From Clostridia bacterium (GTDB lineage: Bacteria > Bacillota > Clostridia > Oscillospirales > CAG-272): a DNA stretch of 35,693 bases. The notes under the pieces are model-generated. The model ran no database searches. It was given only the letters and a program-made list of their open reading frames with translations, and had not been told where the DNA came from. Position 1 is the stretch's first letter, and each line of letters starts with the position of its first letter. The stretch spans positions 1-35,693 of the forward strand of contig JAGBEE010000032.1 in assembly GCA_017937135.1 (NCBI GenBank). The letters are read 5' to 3'. A program made the translations under genes and the position numbers. Of this stretch, positions 1-996 are shown piece after piece.

Positions 1-16
1 ACCCATATACAAAGAG

Positions 17-64
17 AAAGAGAGAACAAATCGGTTTTATAAGCCGAAATGCTCTCTCTTTTTT
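17..64 (+). terminator. Rho-independent terminator of a gene upstream of the window
   Basis: An outer 8-bp stem pairs 17-24 (AAAGAGAG) with 54-61 (CTCTCTTT). It encloses a second 7-bp hairpin (31-37 with 41-47), and a T-run covers 59-64. The T-run direction fits a plus-strand gene ending left of the window. The branched shape is a little unusual for a terminator, so an attenuator is possible. Confidence 0.65.
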
Positions 65-77
65 CTGTTGGTATAAA

Positions 78-304
78 GTGATATTCTTTGCTGACGCAAA
101 GAGTGATATTGTCGCACAGCGACAGTGATATTGAAGCCTTGCGGCTTCAGTGATATTCTATTCGCCCTAAAACTCGGCTTTGAACGCAAATAGGCGTTAA
201 AGCCGCAATATAACTCGGCGTAAGCTGAATATCACTGCGTAGCAATAGAACTCGCCGAAGGCGAATAGAGTTAGCGCGATACTCCGTTATGAGTATCGCG
301 CTAA
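78..304. repeat. Palindromic array of short hairpins with GTGATATT linkers
   Basis: The linker GTGATATT occurs four times on the plus strand (78-85, 103-110, 125-132, 150-157). Small hairpins follow the first three copies: CTTTGC/GCAAAG, GTCGC/GCGAC and GAAGCC/GGCTTC. Around 174-205 a central nested hairpin turns the pattern over. After it the linker returns inverted four times, as AATATAAC (207-214), AATATCAC (228-235), AATAGAAC (244-251) and AATAGAGT (264-271), again separated by small hairpins. CTATTCGCC at 158-166 is the exact reverse complement of 260-268, which closes the structure. A perfect 14-bp stem with a 6-nt loop (271-304) ends it, with no T-run. No coding signal is seen. The function is unknown to me; a non-autonomous repeat element or a structured RNA are both possible. 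Confidence 0.8.
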
Positions 305-320
305 TGCGACAGCCCCTTTC

Positions 321-348
321 CCTATATCCTATATCCTACACCCTAATT
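321..348. repeat. Four 7-nt tandem units of CCTATAT type
   Basis: The units CCTATAT, CCTATAT, CCTACAC and CCTAATT follow each other without gaps. The last one overlaps the stop codon (CTA on the plus strand, TAG on the minus strand) of the MgtC-like gene. It is a short simple repeat, and I know no function for it. Confidence 0.6.
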
Positions 349-996
349 ATCATCGCATCTTTCAATTGAGTAAATAAAGTCATTTTCTCTTATAATTTCG
401 TCAAGCTGAGTTGAGGATAACTCCTTGTCAGTAATAAGAGTAGCACTATATTTAATGCTTTCACCCTCACGAACAATTATAAGCTGATTAAATCTATCAA
501 CACCAAAAATTCCCTTGATTTTCTTGTTTGCTCCATTAATCTGTAGAAAAACAATGTTTACGGAAAAATGCTTTACTGTTTTAAAGGGCGCAATTTTAAG
601 ATGAAATAGCATTTGTATACCAATCATTATAATTGTTGCGCCAAAGGCTAATATGTATAGTCTACCACCACAAGCCATACCAACACCAGCTGTTGCCCAA
701 ACACCTGCCGCTGTTGTAAGGCCCTTTATTTCTTGCTTACGGTAAATAATTATACCTGCACCCAAAAAGCCCACACCGGAAACGATTTGCGCAGCAACCC
801 TTGCCGTATCGGCATCAGGCCCAAAGCCGTATAGGCTCACAATCATCATAAGACAAGCACCAATGCTAACAAGAGTGTGTGTTCTAATTCCTGCCTCCTT
901 AAAGCGCTTTTTCCTTTCAAGGCCAATAAAAAATCCTAAAAAAGCTGACAATAATATATCAATTAACAACCAAAGCTGTGGTATTATATCCTTCAT
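343..996 (-). CDS. MgtC/SapB family membrane protein
   Basis: This 217-residue protein has the MgtC-family layout: four to five hydrophobic segments in the first 130 residues, then a soluble C-terminal domain of about 75 residues. The family signature is visible near residues 24-46, as GLERKKR followed by GIRTHTLVSIGACL, with a second glycine-rich stretch VSGVGFLGAGIIIY near residue 75. MgtC proteins sit in the cytoplasmic membrane and are linked to growth at low magnesium and control of F-type ATP synthase; in Firmicutes the exact role is mostly unproven. The ATG at 996 has GGGAGG about 9 nt upstream. The gene stands alone and diverges from the DUF523 operon. The family is clear, the physiological role is not. 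Confidence 0.9.
   Translation of the reverse strand: MKDIIPQLWLLIDILLSAFLGFFIGLERKKRFKEAGIRTHTLVSIGACLMMIVSLYGFGPDADTARVAAQIVSGVGFLGAGIIIYRKQEIKGLTTAAGVWATAGVGMACGGRLYILAFGATIIMIGIQMLFHLKIAPFKTVKHFSVNIVFLQINGANKKIKGIFGVDRFNQLIIVREGESIKYSATLITDKELSSTQLDEIIRENDFIYSIERCDDN

Follow-up and report, generated by a model that had tools for sequence, protein, structure and literature searches.

A probable MITE-like element of gut Clostridia with a linker-joined hairpin array and a preference for the loops of intrinsic terminators

A hairpin array at the start of a contig

The window, that is, the whole stretch of 35,693 nucleotides that was analysed, has the contig start as its base 1, and the element described here is cut at that point. 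A first-pass annotation had proposed an array of four linkers followed by four inverted ones, with hairpins between them. This arrangement is real in the window: the GTGATATT pattern has 10 matches in the whole window as against 1.18 expected, a number reached in none of 100 shuffles, and the predicted RNA fold of positions 60-320 has z = -8.85, with an equally good fold in none of 200 shuffles. The four direct GTGATATT linkers stand as annotated, but the inverted four are mostly degenerate and an exact inverted copy is present at only one of the four. Judged from sequence comparison, the array is the core of a larger dispersed element that starts to the left of base 78; in other copies it continues leftwards from there, first as an AGAGAG/CTCTCT hairpin and then as a leader region, as far as a second end, which is related to the right one. 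The features of the window copy are as follows.

1..302, plus strand: putative transposable element, portion inside the window, left end past the contig start (aligned copies and flanks; 57 compared elements for the right end and the duplication)
17..61, plus strand: left hairpin module with arms AGAGAG../..CTCTCT (inverted repeat 17-37 / 41-61, 81% complementary; also in other copies)
78..85, plus strand: linker L1, GTGATATT (pattern match)
86..101, plus strand: hairpin between L1 and L2 (read from sequence; covariation of such units)
103..110, plus strand: linker L2, GTGATATT (pattern match)
111..123, plus strand: hairpin between L2 and L3 (read from sequence; different stems here in other copies)
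125..132, plus strand: linker L3, GTGATATT (pattern match)
133..148, plus strand: hairpin between L3 and L4 (read from sequence; different stems here in other copies)
150..157, plus strand: linker L4, GTGATATT (pattern match)
175..205, plus strand: central nested hairpin (of the 8 own-genome copies whose alignment extends to this point, 2 have it)
207..214, minus strand: inverted linker R1, plus strand reads AATATAAC (read from sequence)
216..227, plus strand: hairpin with loop GTAA (read from sequence)
228..235, minus strand: inverted linker R2, exact, plus strand reads AATATCAC (pattern match)
237..243, plus strand: mini-hairpin GCGTAGC (read from sequence; loop statistics)
244..251, minus strand: inverted linker R3, plus strand reads AATAGAAC (read from sequence)
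253..263, plus strand: hairpin with loop GAA (read from sequence)
264..271, minus strand: inverted linker R4, plus strand reads AATAGAGT (read from sequence)
274..301, minus strand: right terminal inverted repeat, itself the closing hairpin of the array (282-301 on the minus strand matches GNGNGATRNYCNTANCGGAG; inverted repeat)
303..304, no strand: AA, putative right copy of a 2-bp target duplication (position rule from the compared elements; left copy outside the window)
305..319, plus strand: putative right arm of the invaded terminator, TGCGACAGCCCC, with a short T-run (same terminator intact elsewhere in the own genome)

The left module includes a hairpin with a T-run, and the GNGNGATRNYCNTANCGGAG end pattern is matched once in the window and in none of 100 shuffles. 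To the right of the element lies an MgtC-family gene (346-996, minus strand; PF02308, E 2.7e-37). The gene points its 3′ end at the element and may thus be the one whose terminator was invaded.

Copies and host range

The search for further copies that the first-pass annotation had suggested, in this genome and its relatives, was successful in both. At E ≤ 1e-22 the own genome has 10 matches, namely the window copy, six extending over most of the query, one partial copy and two cut at contig ends. With window 1-320 as the query, matches were obtained in 51 of 96 relatives' genomes and in 26 of the 29 of the genus (the own genome included in both counts), with 1-11 listed matches per matching genome. 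The same query had no match in phage and plasmid collections. Contigs C3, C4 and C35 of the own genome share the first 132 bases of the element at 100%; the assembly breaks inside the element. Among the 80 loci listed when named genomes were scanned for three consecutive linkers, 70 are hairpin arrays by eye, and these lie in MAGs labelled Clostridia, Clostridiales, Oscillospiraceae or Ruminococcus; the other 10 lack such hairpins and consist of simple repeats or other sequence. Just upstream of a partial own-genome copy, L034 (contig C17, 2-244), a fragment of an IS3-like transposase was recognised by eye.

Terminal repeats and target duplication

The ends were compared in 57 two-ended elements from the own genome, its relatives and named gut-Clostridia MAGs. 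Duplicate elements were removed by sequence, which left 61 candidate pairs; L128, L144 and L194 were dropped as chance pattern matches and L256 as a 529-bp form with weak terminator arms. The elements are bounded by convergent pairs of terminal inverted repeats of about 20 bp with the core GNGTGATRYYCTTANCGGAG. For 54 of the 57 elements the spacing is 299-475 bp, whereas three longer ones carry genes. Of 57 genomes examined for the end pattern, 35 contain it, the own genome with 20 matches, and a reversed control pattern occurs in none.

In 45 of the 57 elements a 2-bp direct repeat stands on both sides, one base beyond the ends; the other 12 lack it. Random re-pairing in 100,000 permutations gave a mean of 15.9 and a maximum of 32, with the offset, which was the best among 25 end positions, taken as given. 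By eye L256 shows an AT/AT duplication, so that the count would be 46 of 58 with this form included, and 46 of 61 with all four dropped rows kept, provided that L128, L144 and L194 lack one. The duplicated dinucleotides are AA, AT, TA or TT. AA faces AA 17 times and never faces TT, and TT faces AA twice; the pairing of AA with AA and never with TT indicates duplication, not palindromy.

These ends bear on whether transposition took place at all. Palindromic repeats might have grown in place from terminator hairpins through slippage and gene conversion, an origin with which the repeated palindromic units and the single linker version within each element are consistent. The presence of the same ends at unrelated sites and the 2-bp direct duplication argue against such growth, which we consider highly improbable.

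Location in the loops of intrinsic terminators

The flanks of the elements have a common organisation: the left flank has an A-run with a GC-rich arm, the right flank the matching arm with a T-run. This corresponds to an intrinsic terminator carrying the element in its loop. The complementarity of the own flank pair exceeded the 99th percentile of mismatched pairs in 52 of the 57 elements, the other 5 failing this arm test, and the 95th percentile in 54; the left flank contained AAAA in 52 elements and the right flank TTTT in 49. The sequences of the arms vary from site to site, the sites being unrelated. Downstream of ridA in the own genome, for example, the element lies in a terminator loop with the arms CAGATGCACAA / TTGTGCATCTG. 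The neighbouring yerC gene was traced to 24 same-genus loci, 13 of them with ridA close upstream, and by eye ridA is followed in all 13 relatives by a short hairpin, in some with a weak T-run, and the element is absent. The terminator arms have diverged in these relatives, which makes the locus the same place and not an identical empty site; a clean empty site with identical arms was not found among the compared loci. The terminator invaded in the window is intact, with the loop TTAA, at 14 distinct places of the own genome (20 locus rows, some overlapping). At these places (L040-L054; window 305-319) the dispersed terminator GGGGCGTCGCTTAATGCGACAGCCCC has a conserved stretch, GATAGTGAAAT, after it and looks like another repeat family. 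A scan for split terminators over 392 kb of the own genome gave 12 matches as against 18 in the reversed control; with only 24 simple terminators found, its settings were too strict to be informative, and it carries no weight here.

Given the terminal repeats, the duplication and the terminator-loop place, the element is very probably a MITE-like, non-autonomous transposon of gut bacteria that targets terminator loops. A non-autonomous element was one of four readings offered in the first-pass annotation, and it is the one that the ends, the 2-bp duplication and the specific target bear out. Intrinsic terminators are abundant short palindromes with AT-rich loops and would provide many nearly harmless sites for an element able to read them.

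Stems, loops and linker versions of the interior

The proposal that the hairpin stems vary while staying complementary holds across copies: at least 4 outer pairs are kept in 188 of 267 distinct GTGATATT units, as compared with only 3.6% of halves cross-combined between units. The possibility, raised beforehand, that the stems drift without pairing was thus examined, and the pairing is kept. In the inverted orientation the loops are closed by C-G in 122 of 155 cases, and among the 124 loops that are 3-4 bases long, 72 have G first and A last, a type of loop that is very stable in DNA and RNA alike. The linkers also differ between elements. The 53 elements shorter than 430 bp carry TGATATT (29 elements), TGAAGTT (6), GTTATGA, TCGATAT, TGAATTG and TGATGTT (4 each) or TGAAATC (2), so by sequence at least seven linker versions exist. 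There is one version per element, with its complement in the opposite half, although by a stricter count a few elements (L288, L023 and L009) have no such linker pair. Since the versions are matched by complements in the other half, linkers, like stems, change in step. Predicted pairing between left and right linkers has a mean of 0.15 to 0.72 depending on the version, the value of 0.15 belonging to the version with two members. From these patterns we infer that folding itself is selected for a function, and with its seven linker versions nature offers an experiment on pairing over long range.

Similarly designed arrays that have other linkers (ATGAATTG, AACTTCACT, AACATCACT, GATTTCAT) were also seen beside or inside elements (upstream parts of L027, L059, L060 and L082), which indicates that hairpin arrays nest.

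What this function might be can be approached through two readings of the array. One is that the array is a signal for transposition, in which an enzyme or host factor would read single-stranded DNA, either its hairpins or the repeated linker, and would require several of these. The C-G closure and the G...A loops of the inverted orientation would suit such recognition, as would the fact that the terminal repeat is a hairpin and the target a hairpin loop. However, the gene-carrying forms L347 and L350 show, on reading, no array between their ends, so the array is not needed in every member; the occurrence of seven linker versions with ends of the same kind argues against a single linker-reading protein; and the own genome has no Y1 transposase. 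On this evidence a transposition signal is an unlikely role for the array.

The array as a possible spacer within a split terminator

The role that we favour, tentatively and with somewhat less than even confidence, is that of a self-folding spacer that would keep the split terminator closed. According to this model, an enzyme acting in trans (none was found here) would recognise the terminal repeats and insert the element into the AT-rich loop of a terminator. The interior would fold during transcription, with the left linkers pairing with the right ones to give a branched rod, and the rod would hold the two terminator arms close to each other, so that termination would survive. Insertion would then be nearly harmless, which would explain both the choice of target and the paired stems. 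If so, the interior of a transposon would have been selected to preserve the function of the site that it splits.

Fold predictions were made with native and shuffled inserts. At equilibrium, the predicted pairing of the terminator arms in 49 elements was 0.993 around native inserts and 0.973 around shuffled ones, values that are saturated and give no separation, and the mean MFE was -160.6 with native and -110.7 with shuffled inserts. When the inserts were folded alone, the native ends were closer than the mean of their own shuffles in 39 of 53 cases, with a median exterior size of 5 as against 12.9. This last result lends modest support to a spacer that holds the arms together.

The stability of the fold, both in the z-score of the window copy and in the MFE of native inserts, would also be expected if the element were by now a feature of its host, kept as a structured 3′ end because it improves termination or protects transcripts from being degraded. 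Its location at gene ends and the T-run hairpin of the left module are in line with this explanation. Contrary to it, the element is patchy at orthologous gene ends, its distribution over 51 of 96 relatives, at 1-11 listed matches apiece, fits mobile DNA better, and no Rfam family is matched; we consider a host feature improbable.

Gene-carrying relatives

Between ends of the same kind, longer forms carry genes, according to our own reading of the loci.

L074 and L186, same place, 1240 bp: HAD hydrolase
L348: another HAD hydrolase
L347: 169-aa protein with hydrophobic ends
L351: P-loop protein, then DUF559
L350: 161-aa protein
L255: 132-aa protein
L256: 86-aa frame
L183: DUF559

Terminator arms are clear for L074, L183, L255 and L350; those of L256 are weak, and by eye L347, L348 and L351 show no evident ones. 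Six of the gene-carrying forms have, by eye, a promoter-like stretch in common, and most have a leader in common. When this leader served as the query, 28 of 245 genomes of the order contained it. It could be placed in 29 of the 30 loci retrieved, 22 of which have a frame of at least 60 aa directly after it, and a Pfam scan of 20 of these 22 frames gave 6 matches: three GNAT acetyltransferases, a nucleotidyltransferase, Cass2 and SF0329. Exact terminator arms were found at 7 of the 29 leader loci (among them L362, L365, L366, L375 and L377, with L374 and L380 doubtful). When a mismatch was allowed, 6 of 18 leader loci lay above the 95th and 4 of 18 above the 99th percentile of mismatched pairs, with arms for example at L357 and L373. 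The evidence for the terminator target is thus firm in the elements selected through their end repeats and only partial in the loci selected through the leader.

Mobile insertion cassettes and integron gene cassettes are likewise non-autonomous units with diverse small genes. The forms described here share with them the varied small genes, and one cargo matches the Pfam family Cass2, 'Integron-associated effector binding protein'; they differ from cassettes, as these are commonly defined, in their inverted-repeat ends and in the duplication within terminator loops. A possible though rather doubtful extension would be a gene-cassette system of gut Clostridia, separate from integrons, in which single genes, each equipped with the common leader, a promoter-like stretch and a hairpin resembling a terminator, insert into terminator loops, and of which gene-less arrays, including that of the window, would be the cargo-free relatives. 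Both would be driven by a dedicated recombinase that reads terminator hairpins (none was found), and the interchangeable self-complementary linkers would be a folding code by which split terminators stay functional. What the gene-carrying relatives point to is a way of exchanging genes among gut Clostridia that is easy to miss, as neither ends nor an enzyme could be matched to a catalogued family.

Known repeat families and the search for a mobilising enzyme

REP/BIME palindromes and IS200/IS605-type elements are hairpins with short linkers that are served by hairpin-reading enzymes. The present element differs from them in its terminal inverted repeats and 2-bp duplication, and membership was rejected because the own genome, the sole genome searched for the Y1 transposase PF01797, has no match to it. 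Elements of the IS630 / Tc1-mariner group duplicate TA. Derivation from this group was discarded, as DDE_3 (PF13358) is absent from the carriers in the genus (0 of 29 genus genomes; 2 of 57 overall) and duplications of AA, AT and TT also occur. The DEDD transposase of IS110 was found in full length (PF01548) in only 1 of 29 genus genomes (G012), and an IS110 derivative was rejected on this count. Weak PF01548 matches lie in frames of 983-1488 aa, with frames of about 1430-1490 aa in many genus genomes (L393-L406), and these could be the RuvC parts of Cas9-like proteins.

As in bacterial MITEs, the elements are short, present in many copies and bounded by terminal inverted repeats and a target duplication, and the array forms have no transposase gene; on examination, the inverted repeats, the duplication and the short, repeated, transposase-free state were all found. 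Unlike MITEs, they occupy terminator loops almost exclusively and contain a long tree of linker-joined hairpins with interchangeable linkers, and no parent transposon was found. The sections consulted of a MITE review mention no terminator-loop target (PMC10969869). As far as the consulted sections of the source go, the BOX repeats of Streptococcus pneumoniae are modular, variable in length, tightly folded, located near gene ends and nested with other repeats, and have terminal repeats and target duplications (PMC3049150). Modularity, terminal repeats, duplications and a tight fold are therefore shared with the present element in a comparison by design only, whereas BOX has the composition boxA-boxB-boxC, and an inverted second half with complementary linkers or insertion into terminator loops is not described in these sections (PMC3049150). 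The SPRITE repeat of the same species is there said to resemble a terminator (PMC3049150), that is, it is terminator-like itself, in contrast to an insert in a terminator. Rfam at the gathering threshold identified only three tRNAs in the window and no family for the array, and a literature search, including the consulted parts of PMC10969869, PMC4133298, PMC3049150 and PMC6382973, brought up neither an account of these repeats nor one of a terminator-loop target.

No mobilising enzyme was found in the own genome, in the genus genomes or between wider-spaced ends, the MAGs being incomplete. Among end pairs spaced 480-7000 bp apart, 10 rows had complementary flanks, several of them gene-carrying forms; no transposase was seen in them, the examination for ORFs covering the rows other than L169 and L175. 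One of these loci, L161, consists of two elements on either side of ordinary genes. DUF559, which we take to be Vsr-like here, lies inside two longer elements (L183 and L351) and occurs in 32 of 57 genomes. It was rejected as the mobilising enzyme, as at 10 of the 20 DUF559 loci whose flanks are complete the gene sits directly between inverted repeats of its own, at least 17 bp long and of the CCTCCCT or CCTTCCC type (L197, L198, L200, L208, L213, L214, L215, L216, L218 and L223), and no match was found in G006, G009 and G018, which are rich in the end pattern (completeness 79, 63 and 72%). DUF559 looks like part of a separate, nested mobile element. Inserts of about 1.3 kb with another end sequence, of the AAGGACAGTTTT type, are present at L201, L212 and L213, and the A-run/T-run arms around L201 and L212 suggest further families in terminators.
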